DNA of 64,000 nt. Source: Sialis fuliginosa (taxonomy: Eukaryota > Arthropoda > Insecta > Megaloptera > Sialidae). Below are positions 9,186 to 62,589 of the stretch, one piece after another. A model generated the notes under the pieces. That model searched no databases and was not told where the DNA came from. It saw nothing but the letters and a program-made list of their open reading frames with translations. Position 1 is the first letter of the stretch. Every line of letters starts with the position of its first letter. The position numbers and the translations under genes are program-made. The stretch spans positions 13,180,761 to 13,244,760 of the forward strand of contig OY540818.1 of the NCBI GenBank assembly GCA_961205875.1, in the 5' to 3' direction.

Positions 9186-9225
9186 TAAGAATACGTCGCG
9201 TTGCTTCTATGTCAGCCTAATCGCT

Positions 9226-11434: not shown

Positions 11435-12125
11435 TATATCGAAAATGATGACATTTACCCGCGTGACACAATTGTCCCCTAAAACTACTCGCCGGCGACT
11501 AAGTTAGCACGAGAAATCAACGCGATACGTAGTTAGAAAGATAGAGCAACAAATGTTCGCTTTGTTAGTCAAAACGACGTTTAGGGTTAATTAAGAAATT
11601 CAATATTAATCAGAGTTAATTAAGAGTTAAAAGGAAATAAATATTAATGTGCCAAATAAGTCATTAAATATATTCGTGACTACTGTTATAAATTATATTC
11701 AGTGTGTATAATAGGTAGCAGATTCAATTAGAATGTAAGTAACAAAATTGAAATATGATTGAACACATGTACGTATTTATGTTATAAAGAAGAAGTATTA
11801 TTATAATGTTCAAGGAGAGGTTTATCTTGAATCTAATAATTACATTGGAATTTCAATAAGTTTCCAATTACACCGTTGTACGTATCAATGTTAATATATC
11901 ATATATTTTTTTCTTATTATAACATTACATCATCGTGGAGCTTAAGGTGTGAAATATTTTATTTAATTTTTTTTACTATTTTTAATTATTTAGGACAATT
12001 ATTTATTCATTTCGCAATTATTAGTAGTTGATATTAAAGTAAAATGATAAATTATAGTATAGGTATGTTTTACTGATCGCTTAATTTTGATATCAGAATA
12101 GTTGATTGGTAAAGAAGGCATGAAC

Positions 12126-13711: not shown

Positions 13712-14613
13712 AAAATTGTACAGAAAAGAGGGGTCTATCTTCAACACCCTCTGAGTTACAGGGTGTTTAAAAACTTCCTTCAAAGTAGTACTTACAAACA
13801 AAGATTATTTCAAAAGTAACGCAACTAGAGCAACCACGAGTCAGTTTCATAGGTAATTAACCAACGTATTTTTCAGTATTAGAATTATTAATATTTAGAA
13901 AAAATTACGATTAGTATATTATTCTTTAAATAAATAATTAAATTAAAATATATAAAATTCATTATATTTTAAAATTTATTTGTTAATTACATCAGATTGA
14001 ATCGAAAAATATTATTTTAGAAAAAAAATCACTCGTCTTGTTTCGTATTTATTGGTAGTCCTACACAAAATTGTAATATTTACATATTTTTAAATAGGTA
14101 GAGTCGTATGCAGAAGTGGACGATCAGTTTTCATTTAAATTCGCTTATCACAAACTTAGTAGGCTCCATTTGATTATTATAATATTTAAATTATTTCTCC
14201 AAGTACCAAACAAAGACAAATATTTATGTTGATTTTGTGGCAATAAATATAAATGATGTTTGTATTAATATTTTTGAATCCGTTGTAAGCGATTATGATC
14301 TTTACGGTGGCAGACGACTTCTGAAGCCCATAATATTTAGTATAAGGTTTGTAATCAAAAACATTTTTGTTTTCTTAAATTTTTTTCTCTTTTATAGAGT
14401 TTAACATCATTATTTTTATCGTTGTTGATCCAATATATTAAAAAGAAAAAGTCAAATTATCTTAATATAACAACGGTGAGAGTCAATCTGGCCATAAAAA
14501 AATCAATCAACACTTTGACCATCCTACAACACAGTCCAACCAAATACGTAACTAAAGTAGAGCACTTTTGCCTACTGGATTTCTAATTAAGTTACCATCT
14601 GATCGTTACAGCT
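13712..14613. other. AT-rich stretch with one small hairpin
   Basis: ACACCCTCTGAGTTACAGGGTGT at about 13739-13761 forms a 7-bp stem. Nothing else gene-like is seen. Confidence 0.5.
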
Positions 14614-14703
14614 ATGGAGAGAAAAATTCGCAACGCGGAAAGTGACGGGGGCACCTTAGTAGTGCGGGTGGCGGACGCCTGGAGCTTGGGTGCGGTCAAG
14701 TAG
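14614..14703 (+). CDS. Small ORF in a G+C island (29 aa), doubtful
   Basis: After TTACAGCT an ATG opens MERKIRNAESDGGTLVVRVA, then DAWSLGAVK and stop. The base composition (over half G+C) is far from the flanks. The length is not significant at that composition. TTACAG before it could be an acceptor. Alternatives are a non-coding first exon or a regulatory island; the island ends with GCAGTGTTGCCAACCTGCTG. Confidence 0.2.
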   Translation: MERKIRNAESDGGTLVVRVADAWSLGAVK

Positions 14704-15332
14704 CGTATTGCTGACCAGCGGTACCATTCTATGCAGTGTTGCCAACCTGCTGTGAGACACAAATTACTAGAACGGTTTTGTATTTAAAAGAAATTGATTT
14801 TATATCTCTTTTGTAATTGACATATTCAAGGTTCTTTGAAGTATGACGGGTTCAACTCAGAAGCGCAGAATTATGTAACAGTAGTAAATTATAACTCTTA
14901 ATTAAACAATGTATTGATTTATTTATTTATTTAGTATTGATATCGAAGAAAAAACTCTTGTGATTTAAGTTTTACTTATATTCTACAAATATTTTTTTAT
15001 ATAAATATTTGTTTTTGAGTATTTATTTATCAGAGCTGTGTACAAGTATAAAAAATGTACTTAAGTACATCGGTACTTAAACAGAAGTACAATTACTCAA
15101 AAAACAAACAATGTACATTGTACATACATATAATTCTAGTTTCTTTAAAATTTGTGAATATTTCTAACATATTTATATAGGTATAATAATAAAGGACACC
15201 CTATATATTTTCGGAGAATATCACTAAATTGGAAATGTTTACTTTTGCAAAATTTTTAATATCTAAAACGATGCGTATTATACATATATATTTTTAAATA
15301 AAACTCGTAGATTATACTATATTTGCGTTGTA
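14704..15332. other. AT-rich non-coding stretch
   Basis: Short AT inverted words only, such as AAGTACAT repeats near 15058-15125. No exon-like frame. Confidence 0.6.
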
Positions 15333-16623: not shown

Positions 16624-17389
16624 ATTAGGGTGGGCCAAATAGTATGGAAGACATTTTACCGATCTCGGCTAACCCCCTACGTGAAAGTACTTTCAAGTTC
16701 GCTGCAGTTTTGATTGAAAATTTTATGTTGTATGTATGTGAATATACATGAAAATTTACAATTTTTCATTGATTTTTTTAAGCAAAACACCAACCCAAGG
16801 GTTTTCGGGTACGAAGATTCCGAATTTGACATCCATTTTTATTTTGAGCGCCACCTGGCGTCAGTTTTGGAAACAAACTTCAGAGTTTATTTTTATTTTA
16901 CCCAAACAAAATACCAGCCTATGCGTTTTCGGCACGATAATTCCGAATCTGATGTTCATTTTAAATTTTGATTTCATCGAGTATATAGAAATTCTTCCCT
17001 ATACATTTTTCTTTTTTTAAAAATTATATTGCATTATAGGTATGCAGATTCGGAATTATCGTGCCGAAAAAAGCATAGGTCGGTATTTTGTTTCCAAAAC
17101 TGGCGTCAGGTGGCGTTCAAGAAAAAAATGGATGTCAAATTCGGAATCCTCGTACCCAAAAACCCTTGGGTTGGTGTTTTACTAAAAAAAATCAATGAAA
17201 AATTATAAATTTTCATGTATTTTAACATACATACATATTGAATTCAAGGGACACAAACTAAAAATTTTCAATAAAAAATGCTAAAGTTGAATGTAGAGGT
17301 TTAATTCCATGGGCGTTTTTCCTTAGAATTGAGAGTACTTTCACGTAGGGGGGTAGCCGAGGTCGGTTGGAAAATTGGCCCACCCTAAT
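16624..17389. mobile_element. Near-complete 766-bp palindrome (foldback element)
   Basis: The ends are ATTAGGGTGGGCCAA and TTGGCCCACCCTAAT. Inward, both arms carry CCTACGTGAAAGTACT, then AACACCAACCCAAGGG, GTACGAAGATTCCGAATTTG and GGCACGATAATTCCGAATCT. The arms of about 380 bp meet near 17005 with only a short poly-T/poly-A centre. The two overlapping 85-90-codon frames in the left arm have mirror-image counterparts in the right arm and look like no known transposase. It is a foldback or long-TIR MITE, possibly TA-flanked. Confidence 0.85.
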
Positions 17390-17391
17390 AT

Positions 17392-17560
17392 TTATGTATT
17401 ATATTATAAAACGAAACGTCTCTCTGTCTGTCTGTCCGTTCGGGCGCTTATCACTCGAGAACTACTTCCGATTTACGTATTTTTTTATTAATTCATAGAT
17501 ATGTTCTCTGGCCAAGAGTTACATTAGGAATATAAGGAATAAACGGTGACGATAATAGTA
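17392..17560 (+). mobile_element. Helitron 5' fragment, copy 3
   Basis: ATTATATTATAAAACG, CTGTCTGTCTGTCCGTTCGG, GCGCTTATCACTCGAGAAC, TTACGTATTTTTTTATTAAT and GATATGTTCTCTGG match the 5' half of the Helitron family. No CTAG end follows. The fragment starts where the 766-bp palindrome ends, so the palindrome probably inserted at or near this Helitron. Confidence 0.6.
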
Positions 17561-18298
17561 AATCGAGTTGGAAAAATCGTAAATATCTCGGCTCTTATGC
17601 GAGGTTGGGGGTTGTTTTCCCTATTTTAATATTATTAAGTTGTTAACCATTGACTATTTGGATAAAAAACTTTAAGTACTCGGCGATTCAGAAAATACTA
17701 ATATAGTAATTTAACTGCATGGAAATGTCTGTTTGTATATCTCATAAAACTAGGATTTAGTTTCTATCGATTGTTTCCATGATTAATGCATTCCATTTTG
17801 ATCTTGTGTAGAAGTTAAATCGAACTCATTGCTAATCGATACTTAATAAATATTATATATAATTACATAAAGGATACGGTATATCGTTTGGCCATTTCAC
17901 AAACTGATACAAATCTGAACAAAGTAGGCTTACGTTCTAATACATATAATAAGAATATCTAGCATGTCCACATGGGGCTATAATCATTGGACTTTTTACC
18001 GTTACAACATAACAACAAGCGGTAGAAACATTTATCTATAATAATTTCGCATCGGCGTAGCTGAACATGCAGATATCTCTGCGCGCGCAGTTATTATAGA
18101 ACTAATATGTGAAATTACAGAAGGGGGCTCTTAATAATCAGATAGTGGCAGTTAATCAAGCGGCTGACCTCTGCAATCAGTGGTATTCAATCTGTGGTCT
18201 ATAGGTTCTACTTAAATACTAACTACCGACTCATTGGGATATCAGATTAAAAACCATATATAGTAGAAATATAATGTAGTAAAAATTAAAATTATTAT
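17561..18298. other. Non-coding stretch
   Basis: Mixed AT-rich DNA with a weak G+C patch at 17920-18170. No frame with exon signals is seen. Confidence 0.5.
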
Positions 18299-18300
18299 AA

Positions 18301-18903
18301 GGTACTGACACCAGTTATGGCCGCTATAAGGGCAAAATTTACTGTTTTTGTGATTAATGGGCTTCTTTTCTGTAATTCTCATGAACTCATGTTCCAAATA
18401 AAACAAGTAACTCTTTATTTAATCAATTTAATTACCAAAGTCCACAAATATAGTTTGTTTTTTAAATTGTAGCCTTTTATGTTTATGTTTTTACTCTAGT
18501 AATGGATAAAGCAAAATCAGTAATGAGCACGCAGTGATGGACAACAAAATGATAAGTACTATGACACAAAAGATACACTGAAAGAAATATCGTTCATTAA
18601 TATTATGAAACGCATTCAACAACCATGAATTCATAGTAATAATGAATAAATACTTCATATTAAAGTAAAAATTTATTAAAAGAATAAAAGTATTTCTTCA
18701 TTATTACTATGAATTCATGGTTGTTAAATGCGTTTCATAATATAAATGAACGATATTTTTTCAGTGTATAAAAGAAAGAATCGTCAAATTTGAAACAATG
18801 TAAAACAGTTGCTCGATAATATTAAAATTAATTAATAAATTATACTAATAATTATTTTAAATGTCCACCATTTTGACACATATTGGCCGATTGTCATCAA
18901 GAA
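18301..18903 (+). mobile_element. TIR element R5, copy A (3' truncated, carries nested MITE)
   Basis: It starts GGTACTGACACCAGTTATGG and is homologous to copies at 33889-34450, 43656-44183 and 56728-57198. Intact copies are about 470 bp and bear imperfect 20-bp inverted ends (GGTACTGRYACCAGTTATGG against GGTATTGGCACCAGTTTTGG). Flanks of the form TA-AGGTACTG...CAGTACCT-TA suggest a TA target. There is no coding frame. This copy loses its 3' end after GCCGATTGTCATCAA and is interrupted at 18576-18766. Confidence 0.75.
18576..18766. mobile_element. 191-bp TA-flanked MITE nested in R5
   Basis: The ends are CACTGAAAGAAATATCGTTC and its complement, and the element is a long palindrome (arms about 80 bp, with CAACCATGAATTCATAGTAA in each). 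TA flanks both sides (18574-18575 and 18767-18768). The paralogous R5 copy at 34160 reads AAGATATAAAAG with a single TA, so the empty site is seen directly. CAC ends plus TA duplication fit the Tc1/mariner superfamily. Confidence 0.9.
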
Positions 18904-22745: not shown

Positions 22746-23241
22746 ATAATTTCATGCATAGGAAGCAAAATTAAAGATATGTAAAGTATGTTTACTAATG
22801 TGCATTTACTGCGCTTGCAAATATCTGTTAAAAACTCAAAGAATAGTCATAACTAATCGGGTTTATTTATGCTATTCCTCTTGGTCGACGAGAATAGCAT
22901 AACATAAGTAAATCGGAATAGAGCAGGAATAAAAATGCGTGTAAACTGCATGGACATAGTTATACCTATTTAGCCAACCTCAAAAAATTAAGTATCTACG
23001 GAGTATAGGGATTTCATCGTAATGCATTTCGCAATTAACATTTGAAAAAGCGTCGTCAGTTAAAATATGGTTAAAACACCTGAGACGAAGAGATGGAAAA
23101 CAAAAGACATAAAAGAGACGAAATATTTTTGAGATTTCTTGTTGGTACACCATCGAACTTATAGCGTATTTCAAATCGGAATTATAATTCCAGCTGACGT
23201 CACTTATTCTCGTATGTGTAAACAGCACCACTTGAAACGGT
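22746..23241. other. Non-coding stretch with a small hairpin
   Basis: TATGCTATTC...GAATAGCATA at about 22868-22901 forms a 10-bp stem. The overlapping frames around 22980-23333 run across the piggyBac boundary and are not genes. Confidence 0.5.
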
Positions 23242-23851
23242 TTAACACTAGAAAGACGGGAAAATCTACCTATACCTACAAAGACGGCGACCGGTCAAAT
23301 GACTACAAATTTAGTAAATATCTTTTTTTATGAGTGGCGAAAAAAATTTAAAGTAAAGAAATAAAACAAGATCTAATGTATGATTAATTTTAATATTCAC
23401 ACACAATTTTTACATTTCATCTTTGGGTATATTTTGCAAAATAGAAAGTATTTCGTTATCTCGAAGCTCTCGAGACATTTCTTCACAATAATATCGATCC
23501 ACAATTACAGGCGGTCAAAACTATATTGACCCTCCTTTGACTGATAAAATAAAAGCAATTTATATACGTATTTATTGTTGTGCCCTCTCAACAACAATTA
23601 AAAACATACAACAATTAAAAACATTTATCAGATCATAACCGTCAAAAGACCGCCGCCGTCTTTGTCGGTATATCAATATTTTAAACAATAAAGAAAAGAT
23701 ATGTGAATTATTTTGATACATAGTATCATTTAACTACTAGTATTAATAAAAGACACAAAGTCTCAGTACGGTAAGTCAAATAGTTTTTGAAGTATTCAAT
23801 ATTGAAATTGAAATTACCGTCAAATGACTGCTCCCGTCTTTCTAGTGTTAA
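23242..23851. mobile_element. piggyBac-like element with TTAA target duplications, 602 bp
   Basis: TTAA (23242-23245), then CACTAGAAAGACGGGAAAAT; at the other end ACTGCTCCCGTCTTTCTAGTG, then TTAA (23848-23851). The end motif CACTAGAAAGA and strict TTAA flanks are the signature of piggyBac. Subterminal blocks AAGACGGCGACCGGTC and GACCGCCGCCGTCTTTG are inverted partners. The flanks give the empty site GAAACGGTTTAACTACATCG. The element is an internal-deletion derivative and keeps a small piece of the transposase frame (see 23410-23478). Confidence 0.9.
23410..23478 (-). pseudogene. N-terminal remnant of piggyBac-like transposase
   Basis: The minus strand encodes MSRELRDNEILSILQNIPK, then DEM and a stop. 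Start methionine, a short basic/acidic lead, and an [E/D]-x-I-L-x-I-L helix followed by acidic residues are how piggyBac-family transposases commonly begin (family knowledge, not searched). Full-length enzymes are about 500-600 residues; only 22 remain, with no DDD catalytic core. It is inside the TTAA-flanked element and on its minus strand. Confidence 0.5.
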
Positions 23852-24317: not shown

Positions 24318-24423
24318 ATAGTGTGGTTAGGTTGAATTTACCTATCATAGTTAAATTCAATCAAAATTTTGGTTCAATTTAATTATGATAGGTAAATTCA
24401 ACCAATTATTTTTTTCAGTGTGT
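24318..24423. mobile_element. Short inverted-repeat MITE
   Basis: GGTTGAATTTACCTATCATA...TATGATAGGTAAATTCAACC with an A/T centre; the right terminus, read inward, is CACACTGAAAAAAATAATTG, similar to the CACTGAAAAAA end of the nested MITE at 18576. The left end has diverged. Confidence 0.6.
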
Positions 24424-24885: not shown

Positions 24886-25064
24886 TTGATTGTTGAATTT
24901 GATTTTTGGGCTCTTGTCCACATTGTCGCGTTTATTCTTTTAACGTTTTGAGTCTCATATTGGAGTCTTCTACAGAAATGTTCTAAAACACTTCTGAAGA
25001 AGACTCCAACGGTCGTAACGTCAAGAGAAAAACGCGACAGCATATACGACAGTTCAGAAATCAA
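24886..25064. mobile_element. Head-to-head pair of Penelope-like tails
   Basis: Plus strand: TTCTGAAGAAGACTCCAACG, GTCGTAACGTCAAGAG, AAAAACGCGACAGC. Minus strand: TTCTGTAGAAGACTCCAATA, CTCAAAACGTTAAAAGAA, TAAACGCGACAATG. Both run outward from a common centre near 24985. CTGAAGA followed by a short stem and (G)AAACGT resembles the hammerhead-like core of Penelope-like retroelements. The 64-codon frame over the minus arm has no independent support. Confidence 0.45.
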
Positions 25065-27044
25065 GTTCATATTTAGATAACAGCCACGAAAACTTATACA
25101 GAAAAAAAAGGTTTTGATGGTTTAAAAAAAATTATCTGTTTGTTTGTTAAATATGACTTAACACGAAAACTACTGAATCAATTGTGAAGTTCGTTTAAAA
25201 CTCTAAAATTATTTTAGGTTTTATGACAAAATTGATTATAATCGATAATTATCGACAGCTTTAAAAAGTAATATTAAAATTTGACTTTTTAGTAAAGAAA
25301 ATATATAAATGGAAGGCTACAGTCTCCATAGTGCTCTGCCACTGTGCAAACAAATCTACAATATACGAGTACGTGCGAGATGGGGTCGTGAGTGGGCACA
25401 GCGATCGATCACAGTGAAATTTTTTTATATATTTCTCAGATCTAGTTTTAGTTGCCCATACTCTTATTGTTATATTAAGTTTTATGTGTGTGTCAAATCT
25501 ATGAAAGTAGTATTTTTTAAATGTTGTTTAGGAATGGAAGCGAATTATATTTTTGATCATTCGACTTGAACAGTAAAAGTAGAAAAAAAATTGTGTACAT
25601 ATAAGCTACTCATTTTGAAGAAATATATTTGACAACTTTTTTGAAGCTTTAATATAGAATATAGAAAAATTTAATTCAATGAAGTTCTCACTTTTACGAG
25701 ATAATTAGTTAGTATTTGCTCATAAATTGGACGCGATTTCTGCATACAGATATTTTAGGAGGATATTTTAGTTATTCTTCTCATTTTTTATTCCACATTT
25801 GGTTTGACTTTAAAGTTAATTGTTCTATTAACTAAATTAGGTTAACGCGTTGTATAAATTCAAATTTCGACCGAATTTCAATTTGGTAACATTCTAAATA
25901 GCCTGATGTATTGGTAAAGTGAATATATATATATACAATAACATGAGAAATATGAAACGAATACCTACTATTACTTGTTTCCTAAAAAAACACTAAAAAC
26001 GTTGTTAGAGGAAGCCAATATTATAAAAACATATATTTAATGGAGAAATATTGTCCGTATTTTATATATGTATGTTGATCACATATATATTTTCGTAGAA
26101 ATTTTTATTTTATTTTGCGTAGTGCATGCATTGAATATTCAGAATTGATTAATTACACCACTGGTCAATTAGCAAGTGTTATATTTGCATATATAATTAT
26201 AAATTATTTCGTAAAATAAAAATGTAGTAATATAGAAGATAGCATTTTATTAAAATAAATTATAAACTTAATTATATTACCGTCCGAATTAAGAAATGAT
26301 GTATTTACAATTTAAATACAAATTGGATCAGTTCATATAAGCATATACATAATACTAAACATTATTAGTAGATGTTCAGCAAGTATTTAATTCAAAACAA
26401 ATTTTGCAACTTGTACTATATGATGAATATCAATATAAGATTTACATGCATTGATATTCGACTTAATTAAAAAATAATCTACAACATTTCACATGCGTGC
26501 TCAAATTATGGCAGTTTAATTTAAAATAAATTGAGAGTCATTCATCTTATTTCAATCGTTTCGCTTTCTTTTACAGATCTTGTCCCATTCACCATTACCT
26601 TGTCATTTTTATCCTACAGCTTATTAGTTCTATATATTACATATATAATAATATTGTTAATTATTGTTTATATAGTATATTATATAGTAATTATAAATAT
26701 TGAGTATCATTACTACATATTATAGAATATATATGCATATACATACAATATACATATGTGATGTAGAGTAGAAAATAATATTGGTAGATATTAATTTATT
26801 TGATAGAAATATAAATAATATCCATAATTTATATGTCAATTTTATTATTTTTATGAGAAAAATGAATATTATAATGTATTCCTTTAATGTAGGTATAGCT
26901 TTGAAAAAATAAGATAACTATTTCAAAAACTTCAAATATAGCTTTTATATATTTTTAATATTTGTAAATTTAAATTTGTTTAGTCCTTACATTTTTGAAT
27001 TTTAATATTCAATTAGTATTACAGTTTATTTTAAGTGTAAGGGT
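25065..27044. other. Long AT-rich stretch, no supported gene
   Basis: An 86-codon ATG frame (25309-25569, plus) begins MEGYSLHSALPLCKQIYNIR and has a GTGAGT donor-like site at 25388, 80 bases in; only that first part is GC-balanced. It might be an exon but nothing is recognised. The ACACGAAAACTACTGAATCA segment near 25158 is a fragment of a Helitron-type repeat. The rest is simple AT sequence. Confidence 0.35.
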
Positions 27045-27297: not shown

Positions 27298-27456
27298 ATA
27301 TAATACAAGTGTCTTGAGGCTTCTGCGATGATCTTGATATGGATCTTGGCTTCTGAGTGCAAGCCGGGTCGATTTGGTTATATTATTGACCGATAACACG
27401 ACCTAAATGACGCGGCTTACACCCAGAAGCCAAGATCTATAATACAAGGGTGTCTT
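27298..27456. mobile_element. Foldback between direct repeats
   Basis: GGATCTTGGCTTCTGAGTGC, AAGCCGGGTCG (27341) pairs with CGGCTTACACCCAGAAGCC, AAGATC (to 27437). Near-identical direct repeats ATAATACAAGTGTCTTGA and ATAATACAAGGGTGTCTTCA flank the palindrome and could be a long target duplication or part of the element ends. Confidence 0.5.
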
Positions 27457-30042: not shown

Positions 30043-30685
30043 TTCACTGCAGGAAATTTTACTAAAAAATTTCAAATTTTTGATTTCGTTAAAATTATGT
30101 TTATTGTATAGAAAATGACGTGAAAAGTTGTCTGTTTTAAACCGCAGGTCAGTATCTCAAACCGTTCTCGAGATATAGTCTCTCAAAGTTTTAGTTTTTT
30201 CAAATTTTTGGAGAAAAAAGGCCATAACTTTTGAACGCGTGGTCGGAATTGATTTTAGTTGACGGATTTGGAATCAGCGTGTTAAAATCTATATAATGAC
30301 ATGTATAATACCTTAAAACTCGAAAAAAAAAAATTCGCGAAAAATCGAAAAAATTCAAAGGGGTATATCTTAAAAAAATGTCGATTTTTGACGAAAATTT
30401 TTTTGTCAGATTTTAAAGTATTATACATGTCATTATATAGATTTTGACACGCTGATTTCAAATCCGTCAATTAAAATCAATTCCGACCACACGTTCAAAA
30501 GTTATGACCTTTTTTCTCCAAAAATTTGAAAAAACTAAAACTTCGAGAGGCTATATCTCGAGAACGGTTTGAGATACAGACCTGCGGTTTGAAACAAACA
30601 ACTTTTCACGTAATTTTCTATACAATAAACATACTTTCAACGAAATCAAAAATTTGAAATTTTTTAGTGAAATTTCCTGCAGTGA
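30043..30685. mobile_element. 643-bp near-perfect palindrome (foldback element)
   Basis: The ends are TTCACTGCAGGAAATTT and AAATTTCCTGCAGTGAA. Both arms contain AAACCGCAGGTCAGTATCTC / GAGATACAGACCTGCGGTTT, TCTCGAGATATAG / CTATATCTCGAGA, and TCTATATAATGACATGTATA / TATACATGTCATTATATAGA. Arms are about 300 bp with an A-rich centre near 30340. It has no transposase frame; the 62-codon minus frame is in the centre and unsupported. Confidence 0.85.
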
Positions 30686-30919
30686 ACTTCAGCTGGTCAT
30701 ACAAATATCGACTAAAAAACAAGAAAATAAGACGTAGAAGTATTATAGTTTTATAATTGAGCGTGTAAATTAATATTAAATGCTATTTTTGTTTTTTGGT
30801 TTAAATGTTTGAGTTGCGTATAAAGATGAATATTCTAATAATATTTTTAAATTATTTAATTGATAAATTATAAAGCTCAAAATTGTATACAAATATAAAA
30901 AAAAATCACAACACACGAA

Positions 30920-31085
30920 CCATCTGAGTACTGCTAACATACGCATCGGATAGGTAATATTGTCAACGGAAATAATTTATTTGAATCGTGGATATCGCTA
31001 ACGCGCGGCTGAAGATGAATGTGTCACCTGGCTGAACCCTCAAGTTCTGTGCCGCGCTAAACGTTTTAATACATGTGGACACTCG
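30920..31085. other. Small G+C patch
   Basis: ATCGCTAACGCGCGGCTGAA and GTGTCACCTGGCTGAACCCT make an island of about 110 bp. No frame or splice signal is convincing. Confidence 0.25.
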
Positions 31086-31162
31086 CTGTGTTCCGTACGA
31101 TCATCTGTTTTATGTCTATACGTACCGATATCTATTATATTTCCATTGTAGTTCAAATGTAT

Positions 31163-31960
31163 GTAGGGGAGATCCGCAATAAAACGGACATGGTCAGTGC
31201 CGGATTAAGCAAGCGCGGGGCCCGTAGCAAATGTTATAAAGAGGCCCTTGGTAATGGCGCCCCCCTACCCACCCCCTAACTACGCCGCTGACTGACTTGA
31301 TTTAGAATATACAATCCTTCAAAAAATTGATAAGTTAATAAAAAATTAAGGAATATTTTTTTGAACTCTTTTAACCCTTGGCAAAGAACGGAAAGGGATG
31401 ATAAAATTTGTTGAAATTTTTACTCAAAAATTAGAAAGCGCAAACTTTTAAATGTGCTTTGGAACACGCAAATCAAATGAATTTTCGCGGAAATATAACT
31501 GTTTGAAAATTAGAATTTTTTTTTTAATTATACCTTAATTTTTTTGAGGTGTGTATAATAAAACACCACTATTACAAACAAAATTTTCTTGATTTGATTT
31601 GAGCAAATTTAGAAAAATCGATTAAAAAAATCAAAGATCGGAGATTCAAAAATCAATTTTTCGATTAAATCGAATCGAGATCGGAAACCCTAAATTTAAA
31701 TTATTAATTACTGTAGATTTGGACACCCCGTATCAACCATTGGACGGTAAGTGATAAATCCAATAAGAGATATTTTTCCGCAAAGTCGCGGGGCCCCCAG
31801 AGACGCGGGGCCCGTAGCATTTGCTACTCCTGCTACGTTGTTAATCCGGCCCTGGACATAGTGTGTTCCATCGAAAATATCCGAACGTATGAATTCAAAT
31901 TTTGTTGTTAGTACTTCTAAGCTCCATAGACTACACCACGACGATGACATTTGCTAGTTC
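31163..31960 (+). repeat. Dispersed repeat R1, copy split by a hAT
   Basis: GTAGGGGAGATCCGCAATAA, AACGGACAT precedes the insertion and AGTGTGTTCCATCG ... AGCTCCATAGACTACACCA follows it. The uninterrupted relative at 5545-5690 gives the pre-insertion sequence. Confidence 0.75.
31195..31854. mobile_element. hAT-type element, 660 bp, nested in R1
   Basis: The left end is CAGTGCCGGATTAAGCAAGC; the right end read inward is CAGGGCCGGATTAACAACG. The 8-bp flanks are GACATGGT (31187-31194) and GACATAGT (31855-31862), one mismatch. Subterminal blocks GCGCGGGGCCCGTAGCAAAT and its inverted relative near 31803 are shared by both ends. The interior is AT-rich and codes for nothing recognisable, so it is non-autonomous. 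Confidence 0.9.
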
Positions 31961-33531: not shown

Positions 33532-33888
33532 TATAAAAATCTGTAAGCTATTACTCCAGATGCAGAGTCCTCTTCAATACAAAAAGTACAGTAACAGAAT
33601 GTACTAGTAATTTAGCGTTAATAAATGATTTGATAGCAGAAATTTTAAAATTGTTTTTCTACTTTTATTAATTAAAAATGTCCATATTTTTACTGATGAA
33701 ATAACCAAAACTTGATAAACCAAAAACTGAATTTTACATAATGAACCCAAACCATATATAATTTCAGGTTCAAGTCCTTTCATGACTTGTATTAATTGTA
33801 TGACATTTGAGTTAATAAATTATACTATAATTCATATCTTCCTGAAATTGATATAAATCTAAAAATTTGTTTTAACTAATTTATCTAT

Positions 33889-34450
33889 AAATTATAGCCG
33901 CTATAAGAGCAAGGTAAACTGTTTTTGTGATTGACGGGATTCTTTTTTGTAATTCTCATGAACTCATGTTACTAATAAAACAAGTAACTCTTTATTTAAT
34001 CAATTAAATTACCAAAGTCCGCAAATATAGTTTGTTTTTTTAAATTATAGCCTTTTATTTTGTTTATGTTTTTTCTCCAGTAATGAATAAAGTAAAACCA
34101 GTAATGAGCACGCAAGGATGGACACTTGCTAATGATTACAAAATGATAAGTACTACGATACAAAAGATATAAAAGAAAGAATCATCTTTGAAACAATGTA
34201 AAGCAGTTGCTATGATAATATAATAATTAATAAATAAATTATACTAATAATTAGTTTGAATATCCTCCATTTTGACACCTATTGGCCGATTGTCATCAAA
34301 TCACGCTGTAAGACAGTTAAATGTATATGTATATGTAGATTAATATTCAGAAATGGTAGTAATCAAATATCAACAAATATTTCTAATTCAGTACATTTAA
34401 TTAAAAAATAGCCATTACTGGGGTCATATCCAAAACTGGTGCCAATACCT
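33889..34450 (+). mobile_element. TIR element R5, copy B (5' end diverged)
   Basis: The body GCCGCTATAAGAGCAAGGTA ... AGTAATGAGCACGCAAGGAT ... TTGGCCGATTGTCATCAAAT, CACGCTGTAAGACAG matches the family. It ends GGGGTCATATCCAAAACTGG, TGCCAATACCT. It provides the empty target (AAGATATAAAAG) of the MITE nested in copy A. Confidence 0.8.
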
Positions 34451-34665
34451 TATCTTATTAGATACAAGATTTCCCCATTTACTTTATATACAACACATAA
34501 AACCTAGTTTAAAGCTACACAAACACACTTATAGATTTCACAGAATCTGTAAATACAAACCTATCCAAGTATATCACATATATAGACACAAAACATTCAT
34601 AGACTGTGTATAAAACTTCAATTTATATACCATGCAATCCTAACATGGTACAACTTTACGTGTTA

Positions 34666-35847: not shown

Positions 35848-36090
35848 AGGGTGCGAAATTATCAAGATAAATATCGAATAATTATCAGATAATTATCCAA
35901 CAACATGGGTCTAATTCTTGAAAGTAAAAACACCTTTTATATTCTTAAATTTTTATTACTTAATAACTAAAATAATACCCAAAGAGTTTACACAATGAAA
36001 CAAAATGACTGAACTGTCATAATCAAAATTATGGAAACAGTTAATTCCTTGCAGTATGGTCGGGGAAATCTCGTAAAACCTTTACATAGA
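35848..36090 (+). repeat. Dispersed repeat R8, copy 1
   Basis: AGGGTGCGAAATTATC, then TTATTACTTAATAACTAAAA, GAGTTTACACAATGAAACAA, TTCCTTGCAGTATGGTCGGG, AAATCTCGTAA. The same order occurs at 42318-42525. Non-coding; class unknown. Confidence 0.65.
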
Positions 36091-40376: not shown

Positions 40377-40623
40377 ATAATAATAATACAATACTTTGTA
40401 CCAAACAGCAGTTTGGTATAAATTATTATTTTTTTATATATTTATTATATAATAATATAAGCAATATCTTGAAAGCTTAATAATTATTGTAACTATAATT
40501 TGTGTATATTATTTTTATCCTTTATTAAATATTTGTGTTTCCTACAGTTGATATTTTATTATTTAAATTTTATTAAGCGTTATCTGAGTATCTTATAAAC
40601 ATTTGACTCGTTCACTGTTACAG

Positions 40624-40654
40624 TTGTTGTTGGCTGGTGCATCTGTACAAGCAC
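40624..40654 (+). CDS. Candidate 31-base exon coding a signal-peptide-like segment
   Basis: CTCGTTCACTGTTACAG precedes TTGTTGTTGGCTGGTGCATC, TGTACAAGCAC, and GTAAGTC follows: textbook acceptor and donor. In the frame LLLAGASVQA + 1 base it reads like the h-region and an A-x-A cleavage site of a secreted protein. Internal signal-peptide exons flanked by long introns are common in insect cell-surface genes. Neither an upstream ATG exon nor a downstream exon was identified. The G+C-rich DNA right after the donor (40670-40760) is unusual for an intron here. Confidence 0.3.
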
Positions 40655-40659
40655 GTAAG

Positions 40660-40775
40660 TCAAAGGAGATCACAATAACGGGATCCCAAGGTCCCGCGCG
40701 CCGCTCAGAGTGACTGACAGCGGCCCCGCCGTGCCCCCGGGCGAACACTTTTCCTCCTCAACAAAAATCGCGCAC
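40660..40775. other. G+C island
   Basis: GGATCCCAAGGTCCCGCGCG, CGCTCAGAGTGACTGACAGC, GGCCCCGCCGTGCCCCCGGG make the most GC-rich 100 bp of the window. It sits directly after the candidate donor at 40655. It may be a regulatory island of that gene or part of a longer exon. Confidence 0.4.
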
Positions 40776-40904
40776 CACTCACAAAAACAAGAAATAGCTG
40801 CATAAAACACACTGCTCCGATTTGTTATTTGTATGTGTTCGTTGATGAATGCGCTTATAATTATATGAGAGTATAATTTGCGTTGATTATTATTGGTTGC
40901 TTTT

Positions 40905-41459
40905 TCTATTACCTAAACCGTTCAATATTGAACAAAATAATGTATTAAAGAATTGTGTATCTAACTTTTATATTTAAGCTACAATGACTGATTTTATGTT
41001 ACAAAGAAATTTAAAATTAATTGTTTAGTTCTGTTTACTTGGACTTATGACCTGCAAAACATTAATTCTTGTCGAAATAAACGATTTTGTCGTCATAAGT
41101 ACTTAATGTAGATAAATTTTGCCTTTTACAGCATCCAATTTGATCTTATCTTGAAATATATATACCGTACCATATTATTCGCGTGAAGTAAAGAAGACCC
41201 GTGTCGAGGCATGGGGCAGGAGGGAGTGATTCTCATGCGTTCGGCCGGCATTCGGACTCATTCGATCCTTTGATCGTTAATGTTTATTTTGTTCTCAAAA
41301 ATTAGCTTTTAAATTTACAATTATTTGTAATTTTTTTCTAATTCGTTTTTTTGGGTAATTTATGTATTGATAACTTATTATTATAATAATTTTGTACTTA
41401 ATTCAACTATATTTTTCAAAAATTAAAATTCCGTAATATACGCAAGCGGGCACAGTTAG
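40905..41459 (+). mobile_element. Non-autonomous Helitron, copy 4 (long form, 5' truncated)
   Basis: It shares with 47668-48446 the long-form block ACTTATGACCTGCAAAACAT, TAATTCTTGTCGAAATAAAC and the GC-rich core CATGGGGCAGGAGGGAGTGA, TCATGCGTTCGGCC. It ends ACGCAAGCGGGCACAGTTAG, a degraded form of the CTAG terminus. No Rep/helicase frame. Confidence 0.7.
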
Positions 41460-41742
41460 TATTTATATAAATTAGATTTTTCAACTACTTTTGAAGTTAA
41501 TATTTGATCTGATTTATGAAAGAACGTATCTATCAGTCAATGTGTTTTCACAATTAATTTCTTCAGAGTTACCATGAGTCTATGAATTTCGGCTTCCATT
41601 TTAACAAGGTCACACCAACGACCACTACACGATCTTTTTACGTTATCTTCAGAACACGTCGACGTGCATGTATGAGTGTACATATATACATACTTTCCTA
41701 CATATAACTTATAATAATGCGAATGTATATTAACAACTCCTT

Positions 41743-41748
41743 TTTATT
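41743..41748 (-). terminator. AATAAA polyadenylation signal
   Basis: On the minus strand GGACAATAAAAAGGAGTTG lies about 105 bases beyond the stop of the 41851-42089 frame and is followed by a GT/T-containing stretch (GAGTTGTTAATATA). In AT-rich DNA AATAAA is frequent; spacing to the stop is what makes this one plausible. Confidence 0.4.
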
Positions 41749-41850
41749 GTCCTGACACGTGATAATATAGTGAGCACGTAATTTGTACCAAAGATTTTTA
41801 TCTTGTACAAGAAACACCGCAATGTTGATTTATAATTGAGTAACAATGGA

Positions 41851-42089
41851 TTATTGATTAGAAGTTACGCTATCTGGAGATCTCTCAGATACTTTTACCT
41901 CATTGTTGTTGCTGTTGTCTCGTCGACCGACTGCTGGTGGCCTCAAGAATTGCTCTAAAATACCAATAATCTGCTTATTTTGTAACATCGATTTGCTACG
42001 ATCAATATTAATAATCTTTTCTATTGTTTTTGAATTGGTACAAGCGTTTATATGCTTGATTTCGGTTTTATATTTTCTGTGACCACATT
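41851..42089 (-). CDS. Candidate 3'-terminal coding exon, product unknown
   Basis: On the minus strand the acceptor TTTCTTCATCTCGTTCAG precedes a frame that reads CGHRKYKTEIKHINACTNSK, TIEKIINIDRSKSMLQNKQI, IGILEQFLRPPAVGRRDNSN, NNEVKVSERSPDSVTSNQ, then TAA at 41853-41851. That is 78 residues after a split codon (two bases of the codon lie in the exon). The same frame stays open upstream to 42192. The composition is hydrophilic, with a short helix-like IIGILEQFL and an Asn/Ser-rich, charged tail; DNA is visibly less AT-rich than the flanks. An AATAAA follows at 41748. I do not recognise the protein, and no upstream exon was found within the window. Confidence 0.5.
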
Positions 42090-42317
42090 CTGAACGAGAT
42101 GAAGAAATTTTCTTTTGTTTTAACGTAAAATTTGTTCCTATAGCTTTAGGATATATGATATATTTTAATATATTATGTATATGGTTATATAATTATTATT
42201 ATCCATTTATGATAAATTTATTTTTTTCACGACACATACAAAAATAGTGGGTTATAACTTATGCAATATTTAAAAACATGGAATCTCTATGTAACGAATT
42301 TACTTTATGTGTATAAA

Positions 42318-42525
42318 AGCAGGGTACGAATTTTCTATTATAATTTTTATATGGAACTGAGTAAGTTGTTATCTTTTTATTACTTAATAACTAAAACAAA
42401 GCCAAAAGAGTTCACACAATGAAACAAAAGTGACCTGATTACCAAACTGTTATAATAAAAACTGTGAACAGATGATTTCCGTATAATGTATCAAACACAG
42501 ATGGTCAAGGAAATCCCGTAATAGC
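42318..42525 (+). repeat. Dispersed repeat R8, copy 2
   Basis: AGGGTACGAATTTTC, TTATTACTTAATAACTAAAA, GAGTTCACACAATGAAACAA, GATGGTCAAGGAAATCCCGT. The match to 35848-36090 runs over about 200 bases with gaps. Confidence 0.65.
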
Positions 42526-43655
42526 TGAGTAAGTTAAGTTCAGGGCCTCCATATGAAGGGGTTTGACTGGACTCTAGTATAGGTCCAGTTTGGTGGGTAA
42601 AAAAAATTCAGTGATAAAAACCTAAAAAGAAGTTTAGGTAAGATTAGAAAAAACTTAAAAAAAGATTCTTAAGAGGTAGAGTGCTAGGAATTTCACTTTT
42701 TCACTATTATCATTTCACACCCTGTATAAAAGTAGATATATAAATTGACAGGTATTTGTCTTCTGGACCTAATATGTAATATATCTAAATACATATAATC
42801 AATTTGTATATTTTTTGTGAATGAAATAATTATATACATTTAGTAACAAATAGTATTTTTAATTGCTTTGACTAGGGTACCATGGTTCTTCATAGGTCAT
42901 TTGCAATTTACGTAATGACAAAGATTTGGTTTATGTGTAAGTTCCAGGAATGGGTGATAACTAATATATTATGTACATTATTCAAGTAAAATAAATGAAT
43001 AGAAATTTTCGGATCCATGAAGAATTAACCATAAAAATTTCAAATTGCAATGACTTAATAACTTTTTTTGTTCTACTCTATAATCGATAAATTCTTCGAA
43101 ACAATGTTAATAGTTTTTTTTGTCCAGGTAGAAGTTACTGCTGAAACAATTATAGCATTACAAATATGTGAAATTCTAATTAAAAACGAATTAAATACTT
43201 TCTATTTGAATATTTCGACAAAGTTTTTATTGAGATTCATTTAAAATTTCAATCCCACCCTGGCACTGGGTTAGTGAGTCAATTGACTTAAAACTGAGCA
43301 ATTCTGACAAAGGTTTTACATTTAAACTTTCCAAGTAACTCAAACAAAAAAGATTCAATTAAAATTACAATTTGTGTTACAAAAAATATTATTTTAATTT
43401 CGTACCGTGGAGAATGACAACAACCTTAGACCACGTATAGATAGATCTTCATTGTTGAATATGTTTTTTATATAATAATATTTACTTACTATTTATTTTT
43501 TCTAATTTTAAATATGTATGTATATAAAAAAACACAGATTAGTTTATAATATTATTCTTTCTGGTATCCTTACTAAGAATGTATTTGTATAAAACAATGG
43601 ACTACTTTATAAGTTAAACATAATTTTTCAGTTATTTAAAAATTGTATTAATATA
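42526..43655. other. AT-rich non-coding stretch
   Basis: No supported feature; A-rich and mixed DNA without long frames. Confidence 0.65.
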
Positions 43656-44183
43656 AGTTGTGGCCGCTATAAGAGCAAAGTTTACTGTTTTTGTAATTGA
43701 CGAGTATCTTTTTTGTAATTCTCATGAACTTATGTTACTAATAAAACAAGTAACTCTTTATTTATTCAATTTATCAAATATAATTTGTTTTTTTAAATTA
43801 TAGCCTTTTATTTTGTTTATGTTTTATCTCCAGTAATGGATAAAGTTATACCATTAATGAGCACGCAGTGATGGACACTTGTTAATGATTACAAAATGAT
43901 AAGTACTATACGACACAAAAGATATAATAGAAAGAATCGTCAAATTTGAAAGAATGTAAAACAGTTGCTATTATAATAATACTATAGTAAATAAATAAAT
44001 TATACTAATAATTAGTTTAAATGTCCACCATTTTGAAACCTATTGGCCGATTGTTATCAAATCACGCTGTAAGACATTTAAATGTATATAGATCAATATG
44101 GTAGTGATCAAATATTTCTAATTCAGTACATTTAATTAAAAAATAGCCATTACTGGGGTCATATCCAAGACTGATGCCAGTAG
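43656..44183 (+). mobile_element. TIR element R5, copy C
   Basis: GTGGCCGCTATAAGAGCAAA ... TAATGAGCACGCAGTGATGG ... GGTCATATCCAAGACTGATG, CCAGTA. Internally it differs from copy B by small deletions. The terminal GGTACTG/CAGTACC bases are eroded on both sides. Confidence 0.75.
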
Positions 44184-44787: not shown

Positions 44788-47339
44788 CAACATTTTCAGA
44801 TTCCTAATAATAATTTATTGTTCATGTCTTGGATTATTTGTATCAGAATAGTAGAGGCGCCTGGTAATTTGGTAATACAGCTAGTTTTTTTACTAATTAA
44901 AATTTGAATTATAATGTACGCTGGTCGTAATTTATATAATAAATATTACTATCAGTTTCCAATAAAAATTTACTATATGCAATTAATTTAACAAATAGTT
45001 ATCTCTTTAAAATAAAAATATGAGGTATAGGTACAAACTTTAACTGTTTAATTAATATTATTTATTAAATATTAATAATGAATTATATCTCAATTAGTGT
45101 TAGTTATTAATAACTAATTTTAAATATTATTATTTTCTAATTAATAACTGAACAATAAATATTAATTATAATGTCATACTACTTTTTATTTGCTGCCACT
45201 GTCATAATTTTCTGTAGATCAGATCAGAGCAAAAGTTACGCGAGAAAAAAGAACAACTACAATTGATTGAAATCGTAAAAGAGATTGAATACTAAAAGTC
45301 GTGCAGGATAATTTGTCATGCAGATATTGCTACCATTCGTTAAATAAATGAAGAAATGAGGGCAAAGTTGACACTGATAAGAAAGAAACATTTTATTTAA
45401 AAAAAAATCGTGAGCAAAATATATTATAATTTGTGACATAAAGTGTAATTGATTAACCCTTTACACTGTTGTAATTTAATGCAGCTTTTTGTACTATTAA
45501 TTTTTATTCTTATAATACTTTCTCATGTTATGCCACAAAATTAGATTTTAAAATTTTCTTTTCATATAAATTCAAAAATTGTTATTTAATTTTAATTTCA
45601 GAACATATTAGTTATTATTCTTATTATGATTGTTGCTAACCTATTTATTTATTTATTTTTGATTTTCATACAAATTCTAAGACGAAACCTGCTGTTTCTT
45701 GGGAGTGTGAAAATATAATTTTAAAGTTTAGGTGAACTGTGTTGTGGGCATGTTGGGTGGGCATGATTACTTTATGCTTAATTGAATTAATATCCCCGTG
45801 TAACACCGGATCAAAAGTGCTAGTTTATTATGTATAGTGTATATTATTTATTAAAAATAAAATGTTTTAAAATTGATCACCAATTTTTAAATCTATATTT
45901 TTCTAATACAAGTCGGTAACTTTGTTAGACTACATATATTGATTGTTGTTTACTTAAAGTACACATCAAATTACGTTTAATAATGATGTTTGTACATACG
46001 TGGTGTGGTCATGTAAGGATGACTGGACGTTTTTGTCAAATATTTTGCATCTAAATACGATACACATCTTACAAATTGAAGTCTGTAAAATTGATTGAAT
46101 CTATTGTACTCGGATGCCGACCTTGGCTGTATTTCACAACGGGAGATCGCTTTATGCAGTTTTGTTATGAAAGCTTTATGTAGATTAATGTTATTTATTT
46201 TTATCGTTTTCATCAAAAGGATGATCAAACTTATTAAAATTAAATTTGGTTGTGAGGTGGAATATAATATGTTGGTTCAGGTTTTGGTTGTATGAGATAT
46301 TTTAGCTTCTCATTCTTATAGTACATTTTCTTAGATGTTTTGATTAATACTCCGTTATCTTAGAAATTTTGATTGTAATGTTGACTAACGACATACAATT
46401 TTTTGAAACATCATTGAAGAGATTAAATTTGCAATACATAATATTGAAAAGGTCTAGAATTTCATTACGGTATATAAAAAATAAATTACAAAAATGTGGC
46501 TTATAATTTTTTTTATGTTTCTACTAAAGCTGGCAAAGTTTTGAATGTACTTTTTTTAAACTTTTGAGTATGGTTATAGGAAGGTACAGTGGAGATTAAT
46601 ACCCAAATTTTGAACTAGCGTCTGCACAAGCTGAAAAATGGATAAGTTTAAAAAAATAGATATCCGGTTTTGTTCCATTACAAGTTAGATTTATCCACAT
46701 TTAAACCACAGATACATCATAGTCGTGTAATGGAAAAAAGTTGTATGTGAAAGAAAACAATAATAATAATAATAAATAAATTTTAACGTAGGTAATAATT
46801 AAATTAATAATTAATTATAATGGATTTATTAGCTTTTGTTCCGAGACACGTTTTTAAAGTAATTTTTAAAGGGGTTTTTAGCAATATTTGATCCGTGATC
46901 TTTGATGATTAAAAATACCGAATCGAAAAAAAATCACTTCAGTTCAAAATGAATTTATCCGATTTTATTCTGCTGCTCTTTATGTAACTTTATTATACTA
47001 TTATAGCATATGCATTTAAACAGGTTTTATCAAAATAGCCCCAGTTTATGGTACCCTCATAACTTATTTTTTAGTTGTGATTAAGAGTTTCTGTTCCGGT
47101 TTTATAATTTAAGTGAGGTTCTCGGGTTTTCTGATTCGGCTTTTGTATCTACATCTTTAGTAACTAGAAAGATGTTAACAACATTATGAATACTACATGC
47201 ACTCACGGTTGTTGTTTATGTTCATCAATGTATTATTAAACACAGTTTCATTTCACAACAAACCAGTGGAGTTATGAACGTGCAGATATTAATTACACAC
47301 ACACACATAGAGTTTAAGTAGGTACTACGTATCAGTCTA
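44788..47339. other. AT-rich stretch with unsupported short frames
   Basis: The 60-, 83- and 66-codon frames near 45257-45439 and 45977-46295 have no domain or matching splice sites; the last two overlap on opposite strands across a mild G+C patch (46105-46160). A short AC run lies near 47297. No gene is supported. Confidence 0.5.
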
Positions 47340-47485
47340 CACTAGTTCACGGTTGACAGGATGTTGGATGGGTCGGCATTGCTACGACGCAGGGCAGGCG
47401 ATGGGTGGTCCGGCTGTCGTCGCCACTGTGTACTCGACCATCATTTATATCTACCTGCATAGTGCATACGTGGTAGCAGCAATTA
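47340..47485. other. G+C island with frames on both strands
   Basis: GGATGTTGGATGGGTCGGCA, GCAGGGCAGGCGATGGGTGG, CCGGCTGTCGTCGCCACTGT. Open frames on both strands (78 codons plus, 69 codons minus) reflect the local lack of stops, not two genes; both depend on TTG/ATG choices and neither resembles a known family. Possibly a regulatory island or an old exon. Confidence 0.3.
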
Positions 47486-47667
47486 AAATATTCACTGTCA
47501 TAAAGTATAATAGCAATAATGGAAAACGTGCACTGCTGGAGAATCACGTTATGCACTTTTGGTTTATAGATCGGCGGTGGTTTGCTTAGAAATCATTGTC
47601 GGGGGATATATTTTATGTTTGTTTTAGATGCCGCGCCGGTAATTTATTTAATATTTATTAAGTAACT

Positions 47668-48446
47668 ATAGCTGTGCCCGCGCGGTTTTCACTCGCGTGG
47701 ACTAGGGAGTTATTGTTTAGGATTTTTGAAAAATATAGTTGAATTAAGTATAAACACGATTAGTTATTATTGTGATAATAACTAATCAAAAAGCACAAAT
47801 AATTTTTGTTCTGTTAAAATTTAAAAGTTAATTACTGAAAACAAACAAACAATTGACGATCAAAACACAACAGCCGATCCGAGGGAATCCGAATACCGTC
47901 CGAACGCATGCAAATCGTTCCTTCAGCCCCGCTACGACGCGGAACTTCGTAGTTCACGCGTTATTAATAATATTTTAACGTATATAACTTATTTAAAGTT
48001 ATTTCCTAAACTTGAAGACCAAATTGGATACTTATATCTACATTAGGAAGTACTTATGGCGATGAAATCATTTATTTCGATAAGGATTAATGTTTTGCAG
48101 GTCATAAGTCCACGTAAACAAAACCCAAACATTTAAAAAAAATTTTGTAATATAAAAGCAGTCATTGTGACTTAAATTTAAAAGTTAGACACATGGTATC
48201 GCGGACTTTTAGATCTTTCGATTCTACATAGTTCTTTACTACATTATTTTGTTCAATATTTAACGGTTTAGGTAGCTTATTCCTTATGTTACCTAACGTA
48301 ACAAAATATATCCTATTACCTGGTCAGAGAACATATCAATGAAAAAAAAAACACGTAAATCGAATAAGTGGTTCTCGAGTAATAAGCGCACTAACGGACA
48401 GACAGACAGACATACAGACGTTGAGCTTTATATTTATTAAGAATGA
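47668..48446 (-). mobile_element. Non-autonomous Helitron, copy 5 (longest, about 780 bp)
   Basis: Read on minus it starts TCATTCTTAATAAATATAAA, has TGTCTGTCTGTCTGTCCGTT, AGTGCGCTTATTACTCGAGA, the long-form block shared with copy 4 (CTTATGACCTGCAAAACATT; CGTTCGGACGGTATTCGG), and ends ACGCGAGTGAAAACCGCGCG, GGCACAGCTAT, with CTAG changed to CTAT. No open frame of note. Confidence 0.75.
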
Positions 48447-56724: not shown

Positions 56725-56727
56725 ATA

Positions 56728-57198
56728 ATGTACTGACACCAGTCTTGGATATGACCCCAGTAATTGCTATTTTTTTATTAAATGTATTGAATTTGAAATA
56801 TTTGTTGATATTTGATTACTACCATTTCTGAATAATAATCTATATACATTTAACTGTCTTACAGCGTGATTTGATGACAATCGCCCAATAGGTGTCAAAA
56901 TGGTGGACATTTAAACGAATTATTAGTATAATTTATTAATTAATTATTATATTATCATAGCAACTGCTTTATAAAATTTTCAAATTTGACGATTCTTTCT
57001 TTTATATATTTTATGTCGTACCTAGTACGTTAATCATCATTAGCAAGTGTCCATCACTGCATGCTCATTACTGGTTTTACTTTATCCATAACTTGTTTTA
57101 TTAGTAACATGAGTTCATAAGAATTACAAAAAAGAAGCCTCAATCACAAAAACAGTTAACCTTGCTCTTATAGCAGCCATAACTGATACCAGTACCTT
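56728..57198 (-). mobile_element. TIR element R5, copy D (both ends present)
   Basis: Read on plus it starts GTACTGACACCAGTCTTGGA, TATGACCCCAGTAA and ends CTCTTATAGCAGCCATAACT, GATACCAGTACCT, flanked by TA on the right. At 471 bp it is the best-preserved copy and defines the element ends. Confidence 0.8.
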
Positions 57199-58257
57199 AT
57201 ATCTTTAAGTGTTTTGGGTTTGTTTTGTTTGCATTAACTTAAATTGCGCATTAGATGAATTTCAGTGTAAATAAAATCGTAAAATCAAAAATAACAATTC
57301 ATTCTAAAAGGGAAATATAAAATTATTTGATGCTGTGAAAGAAAACTTTAGAAAAAATTGTATTCTTGGTAACATATTTACTTTCAATAGTATATCTCGA
57401 TAACTTAATATAATTGAGCAATTTTAGGGAACAGATTCGGTTTCAGTACGTCGAAAATCTATTCGGGATCGTTTATTCACGTATCGGAAACATTTTTTGG
57501 TTCACATGTGTTATCGCCACTCCTATTTTATGTTTCAATTTTTATAAGAAATAGGTTAAAGAAAATAACACGATTAAATTATAGTCAAGGAGCGTAAAAA
57601 TAGACAGTCATAATAGTGAAATATATTTTATGCATGAATAATGTATAGTTTAGAATCACAATCGTTCAACAGTATCAATAAGGTCATTAAAATTAACAAG
57701 AAATGATTTATTACTAGTACAATTAAAAAGTATAATAATTAGTGTGTATTTTAAATTAACTTTTTATAAAACAATTTGTCTGAAAATAATGCAGGCAACA
57801 GAATTTCAAATACATATGGTATGTAATAAATCCATCAAGGAAAGATTGAAAGGCTTATGTCAAAATGATCAAAAATGATATATAGAATATCCTGTGCCCT
57901 TGAAGCAATACAAATAACTAATGTATATTTAAAATTCTAAACAGTAATTTATTAAATTGCATTATTTCATGAAATTTTTTTATATGTTTTTGAAAATTGA
58001 TTTTAAAATACTATAATTATGTTAAGTGGTCTTTATGATAATAGTTTTTGGATTTTGTAAATGTCAATATGTATTTAAATTTCATTTTTTTTTATAATAG
58101 AAATCTATTAATTTTTTCTCGTAAACAAGTTTCAACCAATACTATTATTAAGATTTCAATTATTTGTGAGCATAAATTCAAAAGTATTAACATATGTACT
58201 GGGTGATAGATAAAAAAATATCTCCTGTTACACAGTGGGGATAAAACAAATTGAATT
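57199..58257. other. AT-rich non-coding stretch
   Basis: No supported feature. Confidence 0.65.
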
Positions 58258-60131: not shown

Positions 60132-61230
60132 CCATATCGCTCCATGAATCATTGGCAAAGTAAGTACAGTTCATTATCATGATTGTAATAAATATTATTT
60201 TATTTAACTTAGTTTTAAGTATCAATTTTATGAACATAATTAAAATTGAAGGTAGCGTAAAATTCTAAAGTAACGCTTTTTATAATAAAAAATGTAAAAA
60301 AAAATTATTGTGAACTTATTGAAAGCAATTGCATCAATGTATTCGAATATATGTTGAATTTTATTATTTCGTCATAAACATAAATATCAGCATTACTTTT
60401 ACATATAGATACCTATAACCATTGAAGTATAATATATATGTAAATTGTTTTATTTTATTTCTTATATTTAATTTATTAAAAACGTATCTATTTTTGTGGG
60501 GTATTAAATTAGTCGTTCAAAAATCAAAATGACAAGGTTTACATATCAGTCAAGAAAAATTATGTTCTATAGATATATTGACTTAACAACTAAATAATAG
60601 ATTAAATAATTGCTTTTATTGCTTCATTAATCAAAATCAACTGCGTGGTAAATGAATTTTGTCACATTGGCAATTAAGTGACTTATTTTTTTATTTTTTT
60701 TGTTTCATTTGAAATATTTTAAAAGTTTATAATGAAAAAAAAAATTTTTATGAGTAGGTACATTAACTCCAAAGCGATCGCGTCTTTAGCTATATTGTAA
60801 AATGTTATTACATGATACAAAAATTAATAATGGAATTATGTAGTAGTCGGTAGGGAGAAACTGAAAAACCGGTTCAATGATTTTTTACGGTAAATCACGA
60901 AAAATGCCCTTCAATTTTTATCGCAATATAAAATTAAGGACATAGTAGTAGGCGAATTCAATTTTATGCGGCTGAAAAAGTTTAAAAAAAAATACGTAAT
61001 GAAACAATTTCTATTGCTTCTTTTACGCGCTGTTTTTATGGAACTAGTTAACAGCGTAAATGGAGGGATTACTGTATTTACATTTCAAAGATATTATTGA
61101 TATATTTTAATGAAAATATTTTTATTATTATTTTTTTGGAATAACAAAATACATCAGATTTCTAATTCATGAATACATATCATTATACGCCCAAAAAATG
61201 AATAAATGTGACCCAGAAAACCTCTCGACT
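60132..61230. other. AT-rich non-coding stretch
   Basis: No supported feature. Confidence 0.65.
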
Positions 61231-61405
61231 TATATAGAAGAAGTGCGGCCCTGGTCTAGGACACATCATTCCCGCTCCAGTTATGGACAGGCGGACGCGT
61301 AGAGAAAGTGATCGCGGGCGTCGTCGTCCGTGCCAACCAGGCCACTGTTCTGTACAGGCATTGCGGTCGCCGGCGCTATCACGCGTTTTTGTATAAAATA
61401 CGTCT
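61231..61405. other. G+C island with a 37-codon frame
   Basis: GTGCGGCCCTGGTCTAGG, CAGGCGGACGCGTAGAGAA, ATCGCGGGCGTCGTCGTCCG, GCATTGCGGTCGCCGGCGCT. A plus ATG frame at 61283-61396 reads MDRRTRRESDRGRRRPCQPG, HCSVQALRSPALSRVFV after CTCCAGTT; the minus strand holds a 26-codon ATG frame. Arg-rich reading of CG-rich DNA is not evidence of coding. It is one of several similar isolated islands. Confidence 0.3.
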
Positions 61406-62589
61406 AGGAAAGTTTAACTCACTGACTGATGTTGAGCTACACTAATCTTGACATGACATATGCCTCGTTTTCAGGTGACTGAACTGCCTTAACGTATTTA
61501 TTGATTGAAATAAAAACATATATGAAGTGTTCAACTCGTAATATCGGAAATTATGTTGCAAAAATTTATTCACTGTATATACCTATGTAATACTTTCTTG
61601 TTATTGGTTTTTAAAGTTTACTTTGACAAGTGCTAATGAATTAAATACATTTTAACATTGAGTAAGTATCCAATAAAAAACTAATATAAACTGAACTGCC
61701 TTAACATATTATTTATTGATATTCAAATTTTAGTATCAAACGTTATGTTGCAAAAATATTATAGGTAATGTAGATTTTCTTGGTATCATTTTACGATGCT
61801 TACTTTGACTATGACAATGAATTAAATAGTTTAATATCAAGTAAACAAATTTATTAACGCATACCTAATAACTAGAAAATAGAAATGTTTCCATCAATAT
61901 TAATATATAATCTATATAATCTGCTGTACAATTATATTTTAGGGGATTTTTTGAGTCTATACGTCTATACGTTTAAGGCAATATAATCAGTCTGTATGTG
62001 TCTTTCTTTCATTCGATTTGACAGGAAAAATAAGACCATAGAATTAGTTAAGGCTATATTTTAATTAAAGTAGGTCAGACTAGAGATATGTAAAAAAATG
62101 TACATAGTAAATTGAAGTACAAACTGTACAATTTACTCTACAAAAATATTAGTACATATAAGTAAAAAGTTAAAGTAGTATGCCAAAAACTGTATTTAAG
62201 TACTTAAAATTTTTTTTTTAGGATTTCTTATTAAATTTAATAAACACAAGTCCTTGTAATTTTACTTAAATATTTTTTTCAAAAAAAGTTACTGTACTTC
62301 TACTTAAAAATATACTTTTAATTGCGTAACATAAAGTTGAATAATTAGTAGCTTAGCTTGGCGCGATCCTACAGATTCAGCCTTTGTTTTAAAATATAGT
62401 TTAAATCTTAATCTTTAAGATTATTAATTGCCATAAGAGCGTCGCGACCTCTTTTCTATATTATTAATTAAGTACATATACAGTTCTTGGCCAGGCTCGA
62501 ATTAGGGGAAATTTACAATTGATATTTTATATAATAATAATACCGCTATAAAAGTTAAAAATAGTTACGATGGTTAAAAAGTTTATATT
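61406..62589. other. AT-rich non-coding stretch
   Basis: Two similar segments, AACTGCCTTAACGTATTTAT, TGATTGAAATA (61483) and AACTGCCTTAACATATTATT, TATTGATATTC (61694), each followed by GTTATGTTGCAAAA and then TTACTTTGAC, form a direct repeat about 210 bp apart. No gene is supported. Confidence 0.5.
61480..61855 (+). repeat. Diverged direct duplication, unit about 210 bp
   Basis: Order-preserved matches: TGAACTGCCTTAAC, TATGTTGCAAAAAT, TTACTTTGAC, AATGAATTAAATA, TTTAA, AAGTA occur first at 61481-61668 and again at 61693-61850. This is a local tandem duplication that has since diverged. Confidence 0.6.

Follow-up and report, generated by a model that had tools for sequence, protein, structure and literature searches.

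The locus considered here raises the question of whether a short open frame on the minus strand, followed by a polyadenylation-like signal, is the last coding exon of a gene or a frame that stayed open by accident. The window, i.e. the whole stretch of DNA that was analyzed, is 64 kb long and has a GC content of 28%. In our judgement, the candidate is probably a chance frame in AT-rich, non-coding, repeat-laden DNA, and a real exon of some kind is unlikely. The weights that we attach to this reading and to its three rivals are based on such judgement and were not computed.

The candidate frame and its signals

On the minus strand, a stop-to-stop frame of 113 open codons runs from 42192 to 41851 and is closed by a TAA at 41853–41851. 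Inside this frame lies an acceptor-like pyrimidine stretch with its AG, TTTCTTCATCTCGTTCAG, at 42107–42090 (−). Downstream of this acceptor, from 42089, two bases complete a split codon and are followed by 78 full codons (42087–41854), which end in the C-terminal residues DNSNNNEVKVSERSPDSVTSNQ, such that the candidate terminal exon, putatively coding, spans 42089–41851 including the TAA. An AATAAA hexamer is found at 41748–41743 (−); its start lies 105 nt past the first base of the stop. The set of terminal-exon signals is thus complete and in the correct order, namely an acceptor, a frame open to its stop and an AATAAA downstream, and in this respect the candidate resembles the last coding exon of a protein-coding gene in an insect. 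The preliminary description of this DNA was therefore accurate in placing a 78-residue frame behind an acceptor and an AATAAA about 105 bases downstream, as it was in noting few methionines, with only one being found among the 78 residues. The same description had also called the acceptor excellent. An acceptor-like AG is indeed present, but its quality alone is not beyond chance, as 77 of the 5329 AG sites in the window, itself included, scored at least as high. It should be noted that neither the splice weight matrices nor the amino acid background frequencies used below were trained on this species.

Comparison with chance and coding statistics

Three frames of at least 113 codons, the candidate included, were observed in the window. 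An order-3 Markov simulation yielded a mean of 1.85 such frames, and 35 of the 40 windows simulated contained one or more; an order-1 simulation yielded a mean of 0.98, with one or more in 27 of 40 windows. The length of the frame is, accordingly, no more than chance for this composition. When an acceptor at least as good was combined with at least 78 open codons behind it, the candidate was the only such frame in the window, and the simulated windows contained a mean of 0.55, with 27 of 60 having one or more. The further addition of an AATAAA within 150 nt reduced this to 7 of 60 simulated windows, although the thresholds for these simulations were taken from the candidate itself, which tilts the comparison in its favour. 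Taken together, the exon features of the candidate are near chance for DNA of such composition.

Under the chance reading, stop codons would be absent over the 113 codons by luck, one of the many pyrimidine-rich AGs would happen to fall inside the frame, and one of the 377 AATAAA hexamers found on both strands of the window would happen to follow it. No protein would then be made from the frame, and we infer that neither transcription nor splicing takes place here. As with chance open frames in AT-rich intergenic DNA, the length of the candidate, the strength of its acceptor and its composition all lie within the simulated range. One feature that differs from such frames is the in-frame share of RNY codons, which is high.

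The statistics related to coding did not all point in the same direction. The chi-square of base composition by codon position was 8.33, a value reached by 31% of 587 simulated 78-codon frames, and G occupied 21.8% of first codon positions, as was reached by 6% of the same simulated frames. For the amino acids, the 78 residues had a log-odds score of −0.15 bits relative to the noise of the window. The best sub-stretch of the frame, GILEQFLRPPAVGRRDNSNNNEVKVSERSPDSV, scored 10.7 bits and ranked 37 among 453 open segments of the window; this score is below the mean of 12.0 bits (range 9.8–17.6) for the best sub-stretch in each of 30 simulated windows. The chi-square and the amino acid composition of the candidate thus look like noise. 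Single-sequence structure prediction gave a poor fold (pLDDT 58.7, pTM 0.19), which says little either way.

RNY codons, on the other hand, made up 38.5% of the frame, as compared with 19.2% and 24.4% for the two remaining phases of the minus strand. This share is the highest among the 30 frames of at least 78 codons in the window and was matched by only 5 of the 587 simulated frames, yet it is one of several statistics that were tried and is uncorrected. Of 2126 stretches taken from the window, 62 showed a phase bias as strong as that of the candidate. The base composition also changes at the acceptor. Measured in 60-nt steps, GC rises from 10–23% just upstream of the AG to 23–48% after it. 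GC is, however, also 35–42% at 41601–41710, past the stop and outside any part claimed to be coding. The RNY excess and the GC step together offer a weak hint of coding that falls short of a demonstration. We count both against the chance reading, together with the low number of simulations in which the three signals co-occurred.

Relatives and partner exons

The strongest rival to a chance frame takes the candidate as the last coding exon of a minus-strand gene, spliced at 42090/42089, with 78 codons, polyadenylation after 41743 and upstream exons at higher coordinates. Besides the ordered signals, the RNY share and the composition step, this reading draws on the region 41461–42365, which matches elsewhere in the window only as pieces of at most 32 bases and is, therefore, not obviously a repeat. 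Against it stand the near-chance combination of signals, the noise-like amino acid composition and chi-square, and the search for partner exons. Within the window, we scanned for internal-exon-like intervals of 90–400 nt, a model restricted to internal exons of this length. For the minus strand, over 42201–64000, no interval was found under strict settings, as compared with a simulated mean of 0.1 (20 runs), and one under relaxed settings, as compared with 2.5 (30 runs). The plus strand gave no strict and two relaxed intervals. Partner internal exons at higher coordinates thus show no excess over chance.

Relatives were sought in several collections. The candidate frame had no match in Pfam, in the PDB or in the phage protein search. 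Among viral contigs, eight stretches fitted a pattern, none of which was confirmed as a relative, and the same was true of 128 stretches in prokaryote genomes. A search for phage DNA similarity hit 29 records; among the 20 matches listed, the best E value was 0.1 with query cover of 8–20%, and these were judged to be AT-rich chance similarities. Such missing homology is weak evidence, as the collections covered viruses, prokaryotes and curated libraries of domains and structures, with no insect genome or proteome among them. The lack of relatives in these collections and of partner exons beyond chance is where the candidate differs from the terminal coding exon of an insect gene.

For the window as a whole, 29 of the 453 open segments (at least 40 codons) were scanned against Pfam, and none scored above the curated cut-off. 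The hits with the lowest E values, to DUF1459 (E 0.023) and WIV_dom (E 0.046), both at 47311–47586 (+), and to DUF5903 (E 0.064) at 22983–23294 (−), did not reach their cut-offs, and we regarded them as chance matches. Neither Rfam, at gathering scores, nor ARAGORN, with the bacterial code, returned anything for the whole window. Of the seven tandem-repeat rows of the window, none falls within the candidate frame.

As the features are near chance for the composition and no homology was found, the terminal-exon interpretation leans to chance; given the weak in-frame RNY excess, it is not plainly refuted. We accordingly regard the last-exon reading as quite unlikely. Its more specific form, in which the exon would belong to a fast-evolving or lineage-restricted gene with no known domains, a disordered Asn/Ser-rich tail and a location in a gene-poor, repeat-laden stretch, is decidedly unlikely. 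Were the exon real, a gene-poor stretch would gain one unannotated gene. In its present state, the candidate serves as a useful example of a terminal-exon pattern that forms easily by chance at 28% GC.

Surrounding repeats and remaining readings

The candidate frame sits between two dispersed repeats, which we refer to as families A and B. On its downstream side, a family A copy occupies 40910–41460 (+), of which 40910–41423 was delimited by BLAST and the end at about 41460 was set by eye from the pairwise alignment. The second long copy of this family, at 47722–48274, is in the opposite orientation. On the upstream side, a family B copy occupies 42366–42524 (+), and its second copy lies near 35942–36084; BLAST pairs 35942–36046 with 42366–42477, and the further end of each copy was set by eye. 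The frame could thus represent the non-repeated interior of an old insertion between the two repeats, i.e. a piece of a decayed transposable element, and the abundance of dispersed and self-complementary repeats in the window fits such an origin. A weak inverted pair, 41375–41414 with 42422–42461 (40 nt, 70% complementary), also spans the frame, but as it is one of 19 inverted pairs in the same 3 kb of AT-rich sequence, it may be due to chance. Moreover, the 905-nt core between the repeats has no second long copy in the window, and tblastn of the 113 residues against the rest of the window returned only a 24-residue match (E 0.45). Pfam shows neither a transposase nor a reverse transcriptase in the frame. 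On balance, we consider an origin from a mobile element very unlikely.

An exon of some other structure is highly improbable, be it an internal minus-strand exon (42089–41899) that ends in GAG (41901–41899) before a donor-like GTAAAA (boundary 41899/41898), a site that ranks at the 97th percentile among the 6554 GT sites by weight matrix yet is only moderate as a donor, or a plus-strand exon in the hydrophobic 74-codon frame that is open across the candidate at 41858–42082 (+), which has a lower RNY share (25.7%) and no Pfam match. The opposite strand is commonly open as a by-product, and this was counted against a plus-strand exon. A chance frame remains our preferred reading.

Several other repeats were observed in the window. 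Copies of family A, partly overlapping and some of them joined in differing arrangements, were found at 1407–1680, 3285–3623, 17401–17576, 40910–41460 and 47706–48432. Another dispersed repeat has four copies in both orientations, at 18296–18900, 33886–34453, 43652–44182 and 56725–57201, with about 80–91% identity in the aligned pieces. Stretches that are self-reverse-complementary over their whole length, with 70–92% identity, were found at 30043–30686, 16729–17235, 18573–18769 and 5818–6048, and likewise at 24330–24403, 27338–27441, 24894–25069 and 11386–11436. The largest of these, at 30043–30686, covers 644 bases with 90% identity. These self-complementary stretches resemble long hairpin-forming or palindromic mobile elements.

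The window also contains GC-rich islands that peak at 54–59% GC, at 8851–9250, 14526–14800, 30951–31350, 40576–40850 and 61176–61475. Open frames from these islands, with the exception of 14526–14800, were scanned and contained no Pfam domain above the cut-off. These islands could be promoters or first exons.
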